Source: Ideonella sp. (GTDB taxonomy: Bacteria; Pseudomonadota; Gammaproteobacteria; Burkholderiales; Burkholderiaceae_C). From it: 64,000 bases of DNA. The stretch lies in assembly GCA_015075545.1 (NCBI GenBank), contig JABTUC010000005.1, positions 248,001 to 312,000 on the forward strand, written 5' to 3'. The position numbers and the translations under genes are program-made. A model generated the notes under the pieces. It was not told the origin of the DNA. It saw nothing but the letters and a program-made list of their open reading frames with translations, and did no database searches. Every line of letters starts with the position of its first letter. The stretch's first letter is position 1. Positions 827 through 52,072 of this stretch are shown one piece after another.

Positions 827-1321
827 ATGAACCCGCTCTCGACCTGCGACCTGTGCGACGAACACCGCCACGATGCGGGCGAACGCCTTCGCGTGCTACC
901 GCCGATCTTCCGCGACTTCGGTGCTCGGGTGCGCTTCCACGGCAGCGTCGCCACGCTGCAGTGCTACGAAGACAACACGTCGGTGCGCGAGGCGGTGCAG
1001 TCGCCGGGGCAGGGGCGCGTGCTGGTGGTCGACGGCGGTGGCTCGCTACGGCGCGCGCTGCTCGGCGGCAATCTGGCCGCCGCGGCCGAGAAGAACGGCT
1101 GGGCCGGCGTGGTGATCCACGGTGCGGTGCGCGATGCCGAGGAGTTGTCGCGCTGCCAGATCGGCATCCGCGCGCTCGCGGCGATGCCGCTGGCGACCGA
1201 GAAGCGTCATGCGGGCCTGGTCGACGTGCCGGTCCAGATCCAGGGCGTGTGGGTGCGCCCCGGCGATTCGCTGGTCGCCGACGAAGACGGCATCGTCGTG
1301 ATGGCTGCCGCAGCGCGTTGA
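827..1321 (+). CDS. rraA: RraA-family protein, ribonuclease E activity regulator type
   Basis: A 164-residue RraA-fold protein. It opens with the STCDLCD segment and carries VLPPIFRDFG, VLVVDGGGSLRRALLGGN and GWAGVVIHGAVRD, the typical order for RraA regulators that bind and inhibit RNase E. The fold is shared with class II HMG/CHA aldolases, which need a D-x20-R-D metal and substrate motif. Here the Arg-Asp pair is present (R102, D103), but residue 81 is Gly instead of Asp, so aldolase activity is unlikely. That is inference from the family rule. ATG 827 is preferred to the upstream TTG at 821 because proteins of this family begin close to the STCDLCD segment. Confidence 0.85.
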   Translation: MNPLSTCDLCDEHRHDAGERLRVLPPIFRDFGARVRFHGSVATLQCYEDNTSVREAVQSPGQGRVLVVDGGGSLRRALLGGNLAAAAEKNGWAGVVIHGAVRDAEELSRCQIGIRALAAMPLATEKRHAGLVDVPVQIQGVWVRPGDSLVADEDGIVVMAAAAR

Positions 1322-5892: not shown

Positions 5893-6824
5893 AGTTCGAG
5901 AAGACCCCCGGCTGGCTCGACTGGTACGACAACCCGAGCAAGCCTCGCTTCGAGCTGCCGGCAGGCAGCGTGGATGCGCACTGCCACGTCTTCGGCCCGG
6001 GCGATCAGTTCCCGTACGCGCCCGAGCGCAAATACACGCCGTGCGATGCCGGCAAGCAGCAGCTGTTCGCGCTGCGTGATCACCTCGGCTTCGCGCGCAA
6101 CGTGGTCGTGCAGGCCACCTGCCACGGCGCCGACAACCGCGCGATGGCCGATGCCTGCCGCAGCTCCGGCGGCAAGGCGCGCGGCGTGGCCACCGTGCGG
6201 CGCAGCGTCGGCGACGCCGAGCTGCAGGAGCTGCACGCAGCCGGCGTGCGTGGCGTGCGCTTCAATTTCGTCAAGCGGCTGGTCGACTTCACGCCGAAGG
6301 ACGAGCTGATGGAGATCGCCGGCCGCATCGAGGCGCTGGGCTGGCACGTCGTCGTCTACTTCGAGGCGCAGGATCTGCACGAGCTGTGGAGCTTTTTCAC
6401 CGCGCTGCCGACCACCGTGGTGGTCGACCACATGGGCCGGCCCGACGTACGCAAGCCGATCGACGGGCCCGAGTTCGCGCTGTTCATGAAGTTCATGCGC
6501 GAGCACCGCAACGTGTGGAGCAAGGTGAGCTGCCCCGAGCGGCTGTCGTTCGGCGGGCCGCCGGCGCTCGATGGCCAGCGCGATGCCTACCGCGACGTGG
6601 TGCCGTTCGCGCGCCGCGTCGTCGAGACTTTCCCAGACCGGGTGCTCTGGGGCACCGACTGGCCGCACCCGAACCTGAAAGACCACATGCCCGACGACGG
6701 GCTGCTGGTGGATTTCATCCCGCGCATCGCGACGACCGCCGAGCTGCAGCGCAAGCTGCTGGTCGACAACCCGATGCGGCTGTACTGGCCCGAGGAGCGT
6801 GGCGGCATTGCCGGACAACCCTGA
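5889..6824 (+). CDS. pmdD: 2-Pyrone-4,6-dicarboxylate lactonase (LigI/PmdD)
   Basis: A 311-residue amidohydrolase-superfamily lactonase. It hydrolyses 2-pyrone-4,6-dicarboxylate to 4-oxalomesaconate. VDAHCHVFGPG supplies His31 and His33, the same numbering as characterised LigI. VVVDHMGRPD lies in the middle, and LWGTDWPHPN near residue 255 carries the general-base Asp. LigI enzymes work without a metal. The ATG overlaps the previous stop (ATGA at 5889-5892), showing tight translational coupling. ATG 5889 fits the family N-terminus; the longer upstream frame is the antiparallel reading of the dehydrogenase gene. Confidence 0.95.
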   Translation: MKFEKTPGWLDWYDNPSKPRFELPAGSVDAHCHVFGPGDQFPYAPERKYTPCDAGKQQLFALRDHLGFARNVVVQATCHGADNRAMADACRSSGGKARGVATVRRSVGDAELQELHAAGVRGVRFNFVKRLVDFTPKDELMEIAGRIEALGWHVVVYFEAQDLHELWSFFTALPTTVVVDHMGRPDVRKPIDGPEFALFMKFMREHRNVWSKVSCPERLSFGGPPALDGQRDAYRDVVPFARRVVETFPDRVLWGTDWPHPNLKDHMPDDGLLVDFIPRIATTAELQRKLLVDNPMRLYWPEERGGIAGQP

Positions 6825-6841: not shown

Positions 6842-8141
<1,300 letters not shown>

Positions 8142-8142
8142 C

Positions 8143-9090
8143 GTGACGATCCACGTGGCATTGGCCGGTGCCGGCGCATTCGGCATCAAGCATCTCGATG
8201 CGATGAAGAACATCGCCGACGTGAAGGTGGTCTCGGTGGTCGGTCGCGACCTCGCCAAGACCAAGGAGGTGGCCGAAAAGTACGGCATCGCGCACGTGGC
8301 CACCGACCTCGCCGACAGCCTGAGGCTGAAGACGCTGGACGCGGTGATCCTCGCCACGCCCACGCAGATGCACGCGGCCCAGTCGATGGCCTGCCTCGAG
8401 GCAGGCAAGCACGTGCAGGTGGAGATCCCGCTGTGCGACAAGCTGGCCGACGGCCAGGCGGTGGTGGCGCTGCAGAAGCGCAGCGGCAAGGTGGCGATGT
8501 GCGGCCACACGCGGCGCTTCAACCCGAGCCACCAGTGGGTGCGCAAGCGCATCGTGGCCGGCGAGTTCAACATCCAGCAGATGGACGTGCAGACATACTT
8601 CTTCCGCCGCACCAACATGAATGCCCTGGGCCAGCCGCGCAGCTGGACCGACCACCTGCTGTGGCACCACGCCGCGCACACGGTGGACCTGTTCGCCTAC
8701 CAGGCGCGCTCGCCGGTGGTGAAGGCCAACGCGGTGCAAGGCCCGATCCATCCGGTGCTCGGCATCGCGATGGACATGAGCATCCAGCTCAAGGCGGCCA
8801 ACGACGCGATCTGCACGCTGAGCCTGAGCTTCAACAACGAAGGGCCGCTGGGAACCTTCTTCCGCTACATCGGCGACACCGGCACCTACATCGCGCGCTA
8901 CGACGACCTTTTCAACGGCAAGGACGAGAAGATCGACGTCTCGAAGGTCGACGTGTCGACCAACGGCATCGAGCTGCAGGATCGCGAGTTCTTCGCCGCC
9001 ATCCGCGAGGGCAGGGAGCCCAACGCGAGCGTGGCGCAGGTGCTGCCGTGCTACGAGGTGCTGCACCAGCTGGAGCAGCAACTGCGGTAG
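8143..9090 (+). CDS. pmdC: 4-Carboxy-2-hydroxymuconate-6-semialdehyde dehydrogenase (LigC/PmdC)
   Basis: A 315-residue Gfo/Idh/MocA-type dehydrogenase. It oxidises the hemiacetal of the ring-cleavage product with NAD(P)+ to 2-pyrone-4,6-dicarboxylate, the substrate of PmdD. The Rossmann motif AGAGAFG lies at residues 8-14. VEIPLCDKLADGQ replaces the EKP motif common in the wider family, and GHTRRFNPSHQWVRKR is in the expected place. The GTG at 8143 is the start: it follows GGAG by eight bases and matches the family N-terminus, while the upstream frame overlaps pmdB. Confidence 0.94.
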   Translation: MTIHVALAGAGAFGIKHLDAMKNIADVKVVSVVGRDLAKTKEVAEKYGIAHVATDLADSLRLKTLDAVILATPTQMHAAQSMACLEAGKHVQVEIPLCDKLADGQAVVALQKRSGKVAMCGHTRRFNPSHQWVRKRIVAGEFNIQQMDVQTYFFRRTNMNALGQPRSWTDHLLWHHAAHTVDLFAYQARSPVVKANAVQGPIHPVLGIAMDMSIQLKAANDAICTLSLSFNNEGPLGTFFRYIGDTGTYIARYDDLFNGKDEKIDVSKVDVSTNGIELQDREFFAAIREGREPNASVAQVLPCYEVLHQLEQQLR

Positions 9091-10474: not shown

Positions 10475-11164
10475 ATGACTGCATCCGACCGCGACGCCGC
10501 GTATCGGCTCGAACAACTGGCCTTGGAGCGCTACAGCTGTCGCGGCTTTCTGCCCGAGCCGCTGCCGCGAAGCACGATCGATCGCATCCTCACGATCGCG
10601 CAGCGCAGCCCGTCGTGGTGCAATTCGCAGGCTTGGCAGCTGACGGTCGGCAGTGCCGCAGCCACCGATCGGGCGCGGCGCGCGCTGCTGGCGCACGCAC
10701 GGCAGGGCTTGCCGCCGACGCCCGATCTGCCGTGGCCGCGCGAGTACCGTGGCGTCTACCTTCAGCGTCGCCGCGAGTGCGGATTCCAGCTCTACGCCGC
10801 GGTCGGCGTGGCGCGGGGTGACCAGCAGGGCGCCGATCGGCAGCGGCTCGAGAACTTTCGCTTCTTCGGGGCGCCTCACGTGGCCATCCTGACGACCGAG
10901 GAGCCGTTGGGAACTTATGGCGCGATCGACTGCGGCGCCTACATCGGGCTGTTCATGCTGGCGGCGCGCGCCTGCGGCGTGGCATCGATCGCGATGGCGG
11001 CGCTGGCCGCTTACCCTGACTTCTGGCGGCGTGAATGGGGCTTGGATCCGCAACGGCGCGTCGTCTGCGGCCTGGCGTTCGGGATCGAGGATGCGCAGCA
11101 TCCGGCCAACGGCTTCAGAACCAGGCGGGCAGCGCTGGATGAGGTGGTGCGCTGGGTCGAGTGA
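10475..11164 (+). CDS. Nitroreductase-family FMN oxidoreductase
   Basis: A 229-residue nitroreductase-fold protein. The N-terminal FMN contact region reads YSCRGF followed by the SPSWCNSQAW segment. IDCGAYIGLFMLAARACGV forms the core helix, and the last third contains VVCGLAFGIED, the usual FMN-binding strand. Substrates in this family range from nitroaromatics to quinones and enones and cannot be assigned here. ATG 10475 (near GCAGCGAGGG) is preferred to the GTG at 10442. It is the last + strand gene before the putative dif site. Confidence 0.85.
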   Translation: MTASDRDAAYRLEQLALERYSCRGFLPEPLPRSTIDRILTIAQRSPSWCNSQAWQLTVGSAAATDRARRALLAHARQGLPPTPDLPWPREYRGVYLQRRRECGFQLYAAVGVARGDQQGADRQRLENFRFFGAPHVAILTTEEPLGTYGAIDCGAYIGLFMLAARACGVASIAMAALAAYPDFWRREWGLDPQRRVVCGLAFGIEDAQHPANGFRTRRAALDEVVRWVE

Positions 11165-11186
11165 GTCTGGTCGCCGTTTCTCAGGC

Positions 11187-11214
11187 AGTAAACATAATAT
11201 ACATTGGCGCGTAT
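11187..11214 (-). other. Putative dif site (XerCD chromosome dimer resolution)
   Basis: Read on the - strand the 28 bases contain CAATGTATATTATGTTTACT. Compared with the E. coli dif site, the 6-base central region TGTATA is identical and the XerD arm TTATGTTTACT matches at 9 of 11 positions. The XerC arm (ATACGCGCCAA) matches poorly except for its last two bases, though GCGC is present shifted by one. The site sits between convergent genes in a clearly AT-richer patch. All genes to its left are on the + strand and most to its right are on the - strand, as expected at a replication terminus. The last bases also form an 8-bp inverted repeat (11189-11196 with 11212-11219). Confidence 0.72.
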
Positions 11215-11255
11215 GTTTAGCAGCCTTGCTGGCTGCGATCCGCGATCCGGATCAC

Positions 11256-11495
11256 TCAGTAGATCGTGCCGAGTTCGGTGTCGACGACCTGGTCGCGCGC
11301 CGCGTCCATGATTTCGTCGAAGTGGCGCTGCTCGTCGCCGTCGCGCTTGGGTATCAGCGGTTTGTCGAGGGGCCGGCAGACCCGGCTGTTGAGGGCGCCG
11401 AGTCGCCCTGATTGCTCGATCGCCTGCAACACGGCCTGCGGATCGATCAGCATCGCAAAGGGATCACCGACAACGATGGCGTCCTGGTTCTCCAT
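11256..11495 (-). CDS. Conserved small hypothetical protein (79 aa)
   Basis: A 79-residue protein of unknown function, MENQDAIVVGDPFAMLIDPQ at the start and CRPLDKPLIPKRDG in the middle, acidic overall and without a signal peptide or membrane segment. The frame is clean, and the start ATG at 11495 is followed by an even, protein-like composition, which supports a real gene. It is alone on the - strand, convergent with the nitroreductase gene across the putative dif site, with 133 bases of non-coding DNA separating it from the ankyrin gene. Confidence 0.65.
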   Translation of the reverse strand: MENQDAIVVGDPFAMLIDPQAVLQAIEQSGRLGALNSRVCRPLDKPLIPKRDGDEQRHFDEIMDAARDQVVDTELGTIY

Positions 11496-22484: not shown

Positions 22485-23402
22485 GTGAGCGGCCCACCCT
22501 GGGCCGCCTACGCCAGCCTGGCGGCGAGCATGCTGCTGGTCGGCAGCTACGTCGGGCTATCCAAACTGCTGTTGGTGGCGTTTCCGGTGTTCCTGCTGGC
22601 GTGGTTGCGCTTCGGCATCGCGGCGCTCGCGATGCTGCACTGGTTACCGCGCCGCGATGGCGAGGCGCCGTTGTCGCGCCACGACCGGCAGCTGCTGTTC
22701 TGGGAAAGCTTTCTCGGCAACTTCCTGTTCTCGATCTGCATGCTCTACGGCGTGCTGCTCAGTTCGGCGGTGGCCGCTGGCGTCGTGCTGGCGGCGATTC
22801 CGGCGGCGGTGGCGGTGCTGTCGCGGATTTTTCTGAAGGAGCGCATCGCGCCGCGCGTGATGGCGGCCATCGCCTGCGCAGTGGCCGGCATCGCACTGCT
22901 GGCACTCGGGCGCGCCGGGCCTGAGAGCGCCCGCGCGGGGGAGCACCCTACCCTCGGTCATGCGCTGCTGGTCGGCGCGGCGATCTGCGAGGCGAGTTAC
23001 GTGGTCATCGGCAAGCGGCTCACTGCCCAGGTGTCGGCGCGACGCATCAGCGCGCTCATCAACCTGTGGGGCCTGGTGCTGATCAGCCCGCTGGGGTTGT
23101 GGCAGGCACGGACGCACGATTTCGCGCAGGTGACGCCGGCCACCTGGGGCTTGCTGCTGTTCTATTCGCTGGCGGCGAGCGTGGCCACCGTGTGGTTGTG
23201 GATGCGCGGGCTGCGCCAGGTGCCGGCCTCGCGAGCGGGCGTGTTCACGGTGCTGCTGCCGGTGGCTTCGGCATTGGTGGGCGTGACGGTGCTGAACGAG
23301 CCTTTCACGGCGTCGCACGCCACGGCGTTCGGCCTCGCACTGGGTGGGCTGCTGCTGGCCACCTGGCCGGGGCGCGCGCCGATGGTCGTCGTGCAACCCT
23401 GA
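22485..23402 (+). CDS. DMT-superfamily (EamA) permease
   Basis: A 305-residue inner-membrane protein with about ten predicted membrane helices and two EamA repeats. Examples are SLAASMLLVGSYVGLSKLLL at the N-terminus and GLLLFYSLAASVATVWLWM in the second half; RVMAAIACAVAGIALLALG closes the first repeat. EamA permeases export amino acids or metabolites; the substrate is not evident. It starts at GTG 22485, directly after the repeat element, with no clear ribosome site other than GGAGGG inside the repeat 19 bases upstream. It converges on dusA. Confidence 0.87.
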   Translation: MSGPPWAAYASLAASMLLVGSYVGLSKLLLVAFPVFLLAWLRFGIAALAMLHWLPRRDGEAPLSRHDRQLLFWESFLGNFLFSICMLYGVLLSSAVAAGVVLAAIPAAVAVLSRIFLKERIAPRVMAAIACAVAGIALLALGRAGPESARAGEHPTLGHALLVGAAICEASYVVIGKRLTAQVSARRISALINLWGLVLISPLGLWQARTHDFAQVTPATWGLLLFYSLAASVATVWLWMRGLRQVPASRAGVFTVLLPVASALVGVTVLNEPFTASHATAFGLALGGLLLATWPGRAPMVVVQP

Positions 23403-24532: not shown

Positions 24533-26254
24533 CTAGTGCCCCGACGCCGACGCGGCGCCGATGCCGGTCTCGGAGCGCACCTGCTGCGCGACGAAGCCCG
24601 CGCGATCGCGCTGTGCGCGCGGGCTTCTGTCGAGCACCGAGAACAGCCAGATGCCGACGAAGCCGATCACCATCGAGAACAGCGCCGGCGAGGCGTACGG
24701 AAACAGCGACGAGCCCTTCGGGTTGCCGAGCGTGGCCTCCCACACCGCGGGCGACACCACCGTCAGCACCACCGACGAGACGAGGCCGAGAAAGCCGCCG
24801 ATCACCGCGCCGCGGGTGGTGCAGTCCTTCCACAGCACCGACATCAGCAGCACCGGGAAGTTGGCCGACGCCGCGATGGCGAACGCCAGGCTGACCATGA
24901 AGGCGATGTTCTGCTTCTCGAACGCGATGCCCAGCAGCACCGCGACGATGCCCAGCGCCACCGTGGTGATGCGCGACACCTTCAACTCCGACGCGCTGTC
25001 GGCCCTGCCCTGCTTGACCACCGTGGAGTAGAGGTCGTGCGACACCGCGCTGGCGCCCGACAGCGTGAGCCCGGCCACCACCGCGAGAATGGTGGCGAAC
25101 GCCACCGCCGAGATGAAGCCGAGGAAGACATTGCCGCCGACCGCATTGGCCAGGTGCACCGCGGCCATGTTGCCGCCGCCCAGCAGCGCGCCCTTGGCGT
25201 CGAGGAACTGCGGGTTGGTGAGCACGAAGGTGATGGCGCCGAAGCCGATGATGAAGGTCAGCACGTAGAAGTAGCCGATCCAGGTGGTGGCCCAGAACAC
25301 CGACTTGCGCGCCTCCTTGGCGTTGGGTACGGTGAAGAAGCGCATCAGGATGTGCGGTAGCCCGGCGGTGCCGAACATCAGCGCCATGCCGAAACTGATG
25401 GCCGAGATCGGGTCCTTGATGAAGCCGCCCGGCCCCATGATCGCGAAGCCCTCCTTGGCCGCTGCGTCGGGCGGCTTGCCGGCGGTCGTCGCGAGGCCGG
25501 TCTTGACCTCGACCGCCTTGGCGAACATCGCCTCGGGCGAGAAGCCGAAGCTCCACAGCACCATCAGCGCCATGAAGGTCGCGCCGCCCAGCAGCAGGCA
25601 GGCCTTGATGATCTGCACCCAGGTGGTGGCGGTCATGCCGCCGAACAGCACGTAGACCATCATCAGCGCGCCGACGATCACCACCGCGATCCAGTAGTCG
25701 AGGCCGAACAGCAGCTTGATCAACTGCCCGGCGCCAACCATCTGCGCGATCAGGTAGAACGCCACCACCACCAGCGTGCCGGAGGCGGCGAACACGCGCA
25801 CCGGCGCCTGCTCGAAGCGAAACGCGGCCACATCGGCGAAGGTGAACTTGCCGAGGTTGCGCAGCCGCTCGGCGAGCAGGAAGGTGACCACCGGCCAGCC
25901 GACCAGGAAGCCGATCGAGTAGATCAACCCGTCGAAACCACCCACCATCACCGCGGCCGAGATGCCGAGGAACGACGCCGCGCTCATGTAGTCGCCGGCG
26001 ATCGCCAGGCCGTTCTGGAAGCCGGTGATGCCGCCGCCGGCGGTGTAGAAGTCGGCCGCCGACTTGGTGCGCGCCGCCGCCCACTTGGTGATGAACAGCG
26101 TCGCCACCACGAAGACGGCGAACATGACGATCGCGGTCCAGTTGGTGGCCTGCTTCTGCGCCTGTCCGAGATCGGCACCGGCCGACCACGCGGCTTCCGC
26201 CGCCACGAGCAACGCCAGCGGCACCGCGCCGATGCGAACGACGCGGCGGCTCAT
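24533..26254 (-). CDS. actP: Cation/acetate symporter ActP
   Basis: A 573-residue sodium:solute symporter for acetate and similar short monocarboxylates. A cleavable-looking N-terminal segment ([17 protein letters not shown]) is followed by about 13 membrane helices. Characteristic stretches are [32 protein letters not shown] and [15 protein letters not shown]. The ATG at 26254 overlaps the stop of the DUF485 gene (ATGA), matching the yjcH-actP pairing known from enterobacteria and pseudomonads. Acetyl-CoA synthetase is not in the window; isocitrate lyase lies about 5 kb away, fitting acetate use. Confidence 0.95.
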
Positions 26255-50598: not shown

Positions 50599-50689
50599 GG
50601 AGGGATGGATGAGTGGTTTAAGTCGCACGCCTGGAAAGCGTGTGTGGGTTAACAGCCCACCGCGGGTTCGAATCCCGCTCCCTCCGCCA
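50599..50689 (+). tRNA. tRNA-Ser (anticodon GGA)
   Basis: A 91-nt class II tRNA with encoded CCA. The acceptor arms GGAGGGA and TCCCTCC pair. The anticodon stem CACGC/GCGTG encloses CTGGAAA with anticodon GGA. A long variable arm GTGGGTTAACAGCCCAC and T loop TTCGAAT are clear. Its 3' end is a classic target for tyrosine integrases; an integrase gene starts 165 bases downstream. Confidence 0.96.
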
Positions 50690-50804
50690 GCAATCGATCC
50701 GCAGAGTTTCGGGATCGGCTGGCAACCGGGCTAAAGACCGAGATTCTCCTGGGAAATCTCGTTCGCTACTGACCGTTGCGGTTCGCCAGCAGCCGCGCTA
50801 CAGT

Positions 50805-50853
50805 GGGGGCTCTTTTGGGAAGATGAGCCCCCAAACGGGCGGAAAGAGCCCCC
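50805..50853 (+). promoter_or_regulatory. Spaced GGGGGCTC/GAGCCCCC repeats before the integrase gene
   Basis: The octamer GGGGGCTC (50805-50812) is followed by two inverse copies GAGCCCCC (50825-50832 and 50846-50853), the last ending one base before the integrase ATG. Starts are 20 and 21 bases apart, two helical turns, so a protein could bind them on one face. Hairpins between the first and either later copy would also cover the ribosome site. An operator or integrase arm-type site is possible. Confidence 0.5.
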
Positions 50854-50854
50854 G

Positions 50855-52072
50855 ATGGCGCTGACCGAGGTAGCCTGCAAGAGCGCGCGATGCCCGACCG
50901 GCCGGCCGCGCGTGCGGCTGTTCGACGAGCACGGTCTGTACCTCGAGCTTCTGCCCAACGGTGGCAAGTACTGGAAGTGGAAGTACCGCTTCGGAGGCAA
51001 GGAGAAGCGCCTCGCCCTGGGCGTCTACCCCGGCATCAGCCTAAAGGCGAGCCGCCTCAAACGCGACGACGCGCGCAAGTTGTTGGCCTCTGGGGTGGAC
51101 CCCGGCCAGGCCAAGAAGGAAGACAAGCTGCGCAATCGACTTTCTGCCGCGAGTTCATTCGAGAAAGTGGCTCGGGCGTGGTATGCAACATGGTCCACGG
51201 GGCGCAGTGAGCGCCACGCCAAGCAGACCCTGCGCCGGCTCGAGGCCGACGTGTTCCCCGAGATTGGGTCGCTGCCCATTAAGTCGGTGACCGCCCCGCT
51301 CCTGTTGGCCATGGCGCTCAAGATCGAGAAGCGCGGCGCCGTGGACATCTCCAAGCGCGCGTACCAGACCTGCGGCCAGATCCTTCGCTACGCGGTGGCC
51401 CATGGGAAGCTGGAACGCAACCCGGCAGCCGACGTGAAGCCTGGCGACGCCCTGGCCCCTGCCCGCAAGCGCAACTATGCCAGGCTGGACCAGAAGGAAG
51501 TGCCTGGCCTGCTGCGGAAGATCGACGCCTACGACGGCTCGGTCTACACCCGCCTGGCGCTGCAACTGATGGCGCTCACGTTCGTCCGCACGTCGGAGCT
51601 GATCGGCGCGCGCTGGCGTGAGTTCGACATGGGTGCCAAGCAATGGCGCATCCCTGCCGAGCGGATGAAGATGAAGACGCCGCACATCGTGCCGCTGTCG
51701 AAGCAGGCTGTGGCCGTGCTCAAGGAGTTGGAGCAGTACCGCCAGAGAAGCGACCTGCTGTTCCCTGGCGAGCGCGACCACGACAAGTCGATGAGCAACA
51801 ACACGCTGCTCTACGCGCTCTACCGAATGGGCTACCACTCCCGGATGACAGGCCACGGCTTCCGCGGCGTTGCGTCGACCATCCTGCACGAGCACGGTTT
51901 CGAGCACGCCCACATCGAACTCCAGCTGGCCCACATGGAGCGCGACTCCGTCTCCGCTTCCTACAACTACGCGACGTACCTGCCGCAGCGGGCCAAGATG
52001 ATGCAGTGGTGGGCAGACCACTTGGATACGCTGCGGCGAGGAGCCGAGGTGTTGTCGCTCCACGCGGCGTGA
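50855..52072 (+). CDS. P4-type tyrosine integrase
   Basis: A 405-residue integrase with the N-terminal DUF4102 arm-binding domain (LYLELLPNGGKYWKWKYRFG, RLALGVYPGISLKAS), the core-binding SAM-like domain, and the catalytic domain. Active-site residues: Arg in TFVRTSELIGARW, Lys in MKMKTPHIVPLSK, HGFRG (His-x-x-Arg), His in LAHMERD, and the Tyr nucleophile in SASYNYATYL. All are present, so the enzyme may be active. It lies next to tRNA-Ser, its probable attachment site, but no cargo genes follow, so it is the remnant of an island. Confidence 0.93.
   Translation: MALTEVACKSARCPTGRPRVRLFDEHGLYLELLPNGGKYWKWKYRFGGKEKRLALGVYPGISLKASRLKRDDARKLLASGVDPGQAKKEDKLRNRLSAASSFEKVARAWYATWSTGRSERHAKQTLRRLEADVFPEIGSLPIKSVTAPLLLAMALKIEKRGAVDISKRAYQTCGQILRYAVAHGKLERNPAADVKPGDALAPARKRNYARLDQKEVPGLLRKIDAYDGSVYTRLALQLMALTFVRTSELIGARWREFDMGAKQWRIPAERMKMKTPHIVPLSKQAVAVLKELEQYRQRSDLLFPGERDHDKSMSNNTLLYALYRMGYHSRMTGHGFRGVASTILHEHGFEHAHIELQLAHMERDSVSASYNYATYLPQRAKMMQWWADHLDTLRRGAEVLSLHAA

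Follow-up and report, generated by a model that had tools for sequence, protein, structure and literature searches.

Sister chromosomes that cross over an odd number of times become joined in a dimer, which is resolved by the XerCD/dif/FtsK system. The system is textbook, and the site described here is ordinary in kind. By analogy with E. coli, FtsK would read the KOPS octamers and pump DNA towards dif at the closing septum, where its gamma domain would contact XerD; XerC and XerD would then recombine the two dif copies, converting the dimer into two monomers before division. The described proteobacterial sites (E. coli; Carnoy and Roten 2009, PMC2731167) have a 28-bp layout with a TGTATA centre and an XerD arm that begins TTATGT, and are single copy, AT-rich, intergenic and close to the GC-skew turn of genomes that encode XerC and the FtsK gamma domain. 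The XerC arm usually reads CGCATAA and the A at position 25 is highly conserved (PMC2731167). dif marks where segregation ends; the replication forks need not meet there (PMC6199493).

The site at 11187–11214 is alike in all of these features except the XerC arm, which reads RCGCGMCAA in this genus, and, in this genome, the bases at position 8 (C) and position 25 (T). The dif of Rhodoferax ferrireducens (PMC2731167) shares with it C at position 9, the centre (6/6) and most of the XerD arm (9/11), but only 4/11 positions of the XerC arm. The 28-mer is single, AT-rich and intergenic, carries a proteobacterial XerD arm and centre, is conserved in congeners and lies in the zone where KOPS and GC skew reverse; we therefore regard it as very probably the chromosomal dif of this uncultured Burkholderiales bacterium, marking the terminus region.

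The window (64 kb) is the stretch 248001–312000 of contig C9 in a 3.69-Mb draft of 13 contigs that is 85.4% complete, and the site is located at 259187–259214 of the contig. Its minus-strand sequence is ATACGCGCCAA TGTATA TTATGTTTACT. The agreement with E. coli dif given in the earlier note for the XerD arm (9/11) and the centre (6/6) was identical on recounting, and the XerC arm is weaker (2/11), as it had said. Its location between convergent genes in an AT-rich spot is also correct; the genes end at 11164 (plus) and 11256 (minus), and the non-coding gap of 91 bp between them (11165–11255) holds the 28-mer. The GC content of the 28-mer is 0.32 as compared to about 0.69 for the contig, where 157 of 324,660 28-mers are equally GC-poor. 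Window frames were searched by family, ten plus seven against Pfam and the integrase against NCBIfam. The genes searched around the site are of ordinary chromosomal kinds, and no phage-type gene adjoining the site was found among these frames. The features are collected in Table 1.

Table 1. Features of the dif region in window coordinates (contig positions of the KOPS octamers under Remarks)
Feature	Position	Strand	Remarks
dif site (28 bp), XerC arm, centre, XerD arm	11187..11214	-	genus consensus and footprint; best on contig by 8 mismatches
XerC half-site ATACGCGCCAA	11204..11214	-	2/11 vs E. coli; 9/11 vs five-congener consensus
Central hexanucleotide TGTATA	11198..11203	-	6/6 vs E. coli; 6/6 vs genus consensus
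XerD half-site TTATGTTTACT	11187..11197	-	9/11 vs E. coli; 10/11 vs genus consensus
Nitroreductase-family gene (PF00881), convergent neighbour	10475..11164	+	start may be 10442
79-aa protein gene, no Pfam family	11256..11495	-	stop codon 41 bp from dif
KOPS octamer GGGNAGGG	1007..1014	+	towards dif; contig 249007
KOPS octamer	7182..7189	+	towards dif; contig 255182
KOPS octamer, last on left	9009..9016	+	towards dif; contig 257009
KOPS octamer, first on right	22946..22953	-	towards dif; contig 270946
KOPS octamer	25003..25010	-	towards dif; contig 273003
KOPS octamer	51457..51464	-	towards dif; contig 299457

With up to 3 mismatches allowed, the pattern ATAANNTATATTATGTNAA has a single match in the 3.69-Mb draft, the window site, a count that covers the assembled part (85%) only. 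A genus consensus was built from five same-genus genomes, with the present genome not used. The site itself has 3 mismatches to the consensus, and the next best 28-mer on the 325-kb contig has 11. Matches this good would be expected by chance about 6e-8 times in the genome at the base composition of the contig, and 4e-5 times if the genome were 60% AT. The 28-base match proposed as a check is thus single, and no better dif match was found elsewhere in the draft assembly. The E. coli-like dif pattern with up to 3 mismatches gives no match in the whole draft, and the E. coli 28-mer none on the window, as is expected with an XerC arm that has diverged. The shorter core AANNTATATTATGTNAA at 2 mismatches has one further match in the draft (C8:294819), which was rejected as a dif, being located inside an open frame of 209 aa and 14 mismatches from the genus dif.

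With the same tolerance of 3 mismatches, the genus consensus has one match per genome in 6/6 genomes of the genus and none in the 54 other relatives searched. For the five congeners, from which the consensus comes, the one-site result is partly circular; for the present genome it is an independent test, which the site passes with 3 mismatches. The core AANNTATATTATGTNAA is matched in 57/60 genomes (this one included), and a reversed-pattern control also matches many genomes, so not every core match is a dif. Alignment with the congeners, starting at the 79-aa gene's end and running over dif, provides an independent footprint: the 28-mer forms a conserved block and both flanks drift. The stop codon of the 79-aa gene is 44–61 bp from dif in the five congeners, where the matches have the XerC arm RCGCGACAA in common. 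Judged from these sequences, the weak likeness of the XerC arm to that of E. coli is a trait of the relatives too. A close comparison is G005, whose dif is in the same syntenic place beside the same 79-aa neighbour and is identical at 26/28 bases, with differences at positions 8 and 25.

Gene order on the side of the 79-aa gene is kept in G001, G002, G004 and G005; the G003 contig stops close to dif. Across the site, a LigB-domain gene is located under 1 kb from dif here. The distance is at most about 1 kb in G001, G002 (where the contig end cuts it) and G003, and roughly 6 kb in G005. The LigB-side match in G004 is weaker (45%) and falls where another window gene fits better, and the nitroreductase gene is matched in G001 only. 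Thus dif stays in place and the far side varies. Within approximately 12 kb on each side, most of the compared genes have counterparts near the congener site. Among 80 named loci, scanned over as much as 9 kb to either side of a neighbouring gene, a dif-like core is found in one, which is the locus of G005; in the stretches scanned the place of the site is therefore not shared beyond the genus.

The polarity of the contig changes around the site. With GGGNAGGG taken by us to be the KOPS octamer, contig C9 has 17 forward and 1 reverse copies to the left of the site and 0 forward and 5 reverse copies to the right. The best single split, between 257,009 and 270,946, fits 22/23 octamers and encloses the site at 259.2 kb; in window coordinates the strand changes between 9.0 and 22.9 kb. 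Shuffling the labels equalled this split in 5 of 20,000 trials. The looser motif GNGNAGGG runs in the same direction with more noise (83 forward and 46 reverse on the left, 13 forward and 23 reverse on the right). Octamers chosen as the most skewed to the left of the site gave 118 forward and 137 reverse on the right, too weak to use. Around the congeners' own sites, 7/8 octamers fit in G004 (196 kb) and 14/18 in G005 (200 kb), which is less clean on its left (5 forward, 3 reverse). Elsewhere in the draft, among the matches listed, 52/65 octamers on C1, the largest contig seen, are on one strand, and those on C6 are on mixed strands. C6 carries dnaA and is a different contig from that of dif.

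The GC skew inside the 64-kb window is too noisy to reveal the turn at 11.2 kb that was to be looked for, and the contig is needed. A two-segment fit to the skew of C9 places the change point at 265 kb with an approximate 95% set of 251–274 kb, which includes the site; 4 of 2,000 shuffles of 10-kb blocks equalled the strength of this change. Cumulative skew peaks at 271,393, 12.2 kb from the site, as compared to a median of 7.3 kb and a third quartile of 21.4 kb for published distances between dif and the cumulative skew peak; by this measure the site is near the skew extreme. In both G004 and G005 the peak is in the 10-kb bin that ends at the site; in the left-hand stretch of G005, the skew over the initial 50 kb is slightly negative. 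The earlier note had proposed a replication terminus here, which, if correct, would pin that of the genome. Both KOPS and skew do change sign around the site, and the terminus region is upheld; the skew peak is 12.2 kb off, and dif as the end of segregation is not necessarily the point at which forks meet. The site fixes the terminus region and with it the replichore orientation of the draft genome of an uncultured bacterium. Congeners, KOPS and skew in combination can settle a dif whose XerC arm has diverged beyond the reach of an E. coli-like search (3 mismatches).

The flip in gene strand that had been reported at the site (14 genes, all plus, on the left; 33/49 minus on the right) is reproduced inside the window with a simple gene caller, at 13/13 plus and 33/50 minus. 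It is a local feature. Over the whole contig the genes to the left of the site are 123 plus and 125 minus: 33 plus and 11 minus at 0–50 kb from the site, 24 plus and 18 minus at 50–100 kb, and reversed beyond about 100 kb. We set gene-strand bias aside as evidence for the terminus because of this reversal on the left. rimP, nusA and infB are on the minus strand (40.8–45.7 kb), as noted before, and would be on the leading strand if the forks of that side run towards the site.

The draft contains the site, KOPS, XerC and the FtsK gamma domain; XerD and the reaction itself are inferred from the E. coli system. XerC is encoded on C1 (TIGR02224, 326 bits, slightly under the curated cut-off of 335), preceded by a frame that we take to be DUF484-like, and the FtsK gamma domain is on C13. 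No XerD was found in the 85%-complete draft, where the best match to the XerD model is XerC. XerD is above cut-off in 18/20 genomes searched; the two exceptions are this draft and G041 (68% complete). When the 3.9-kb xerD neighbourhood of G004 was compared with the draft at the DNA level, it matched only stretches of XerC, the integron integrase and three short segments; an assembly gap is therefore the likeliest reason for the absence of XerD. The integron integrase in the draft is located at C1:407539-408138 (TIGR02249, 466 bits).

The 28-mer could instead be a decayed dif, or the attachment-site remnant of a phage or mobile element that uses Xer; the working dif would then lie in the missing part of the draft. 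The draft is indeed 85% complete, elements are apparently integrated at dif in other members of the family and the order, and this site differs at the usually conserved positions 8 and 25. Position 25, however, varies also in G001, G009 and G010, there is one site in the draft assembly, and the neighbouring genes that were searched are ordinary chromosomal ones; most of those compared, out to about 12 kb either way, recur near the congener site. The reversal of skew and KOPS around the site also argues against this reading, which we regard as very improbable.

Even less credence is given to a regulatory element that resembles dif by chance. This reading draws on a perfect 8-bp inverted repeat, TAAACATA-15-TATGTTTA, at 11189–11219, which could be an operator or a terminator stem and which lies half inside and half outside dif; the window has no second repeat of this kind. 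Its outer half is kept in 0/5 congeners, whereas the 28-mer is kept, and the repeat was rejected as an operator for this reason. The stem is AT-rich, unlike an intrinsic terminator, and the location between the 3′ ends of convergent genes does not favour regulation; that such an element accounts for the site is hardly believable.

The XerC arm was compared across the family. Site stretches were available for 28/36 genomes and 25 gave a readable dif; G013, G017 and G024 were dropped as having no site that fits the rule, which ignores the XerC arm, and the first core search did count positions 10–11 of that arm. Position 9 is C in 25/25 readable family sites. For G009, which has two sites, the one with the normal arm was counted; C is found at this position in its second site as well. 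Outside the family, the usual-looking site has T at position 9 in the three readable genomes (G038, G039 and G042), and the second sites have A in G039 and C in G042; G052, also outside the family, did not fit the rule. Position 8 is C here, whereas all 24 of the other family sites that were read have A. Across the family the XerC half-site may have shifted, furthest in this genus, and the specificity of XerC could have changed in step; we put this forward tentatively, as a possibility that we would not yet favour. If true, XerC/dif co-evolution could be followed through the family as a natural series in which the XerD side is nearly fixed. As sequence, C at position 9 is already in print, in the Rhodoferax dif of Carnoy and Roten 2009 (PMC2731167, Table 1). 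The main text of Kono et al. 2011 (PMC3025954) has none of the six names looked for.

The two dif-like sites of G009 are located 7.7 kb apart on its contig C1, at 6733 and 14393. The stretch between them is of lower GC content and encodes Rep_trans, Zot-family and TspB-like proteins, and the XerC arm of the site at 6733 is spoiled; the arrangement resembles a filamentous phage that Xer has inserted at dif. The same two-site pattern, with an unusual XerC arm in one copy, is seen in G039 (C1, 6243 and 14150) and G042 (C1, 6676 and 13479), from two other families of the order.

Two further loci on the contig of the present genome carry tyrosine integrases. In the window, tRNA-Ser(GGA) is directly followed by a tyrosine integrase gene (50855–52072); the slightly lower-GC stretch 50599–52072 reads as a small island or remnant at tRNA-Ser, about 40 kb from dif. 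At 56.0–59.5 kb of C9 a tyrosine integrase frame directly follows a frame that, named by eye, is presumably isocitrate dehydrogenase, and the locus has the look of an element inserted at the icd end.
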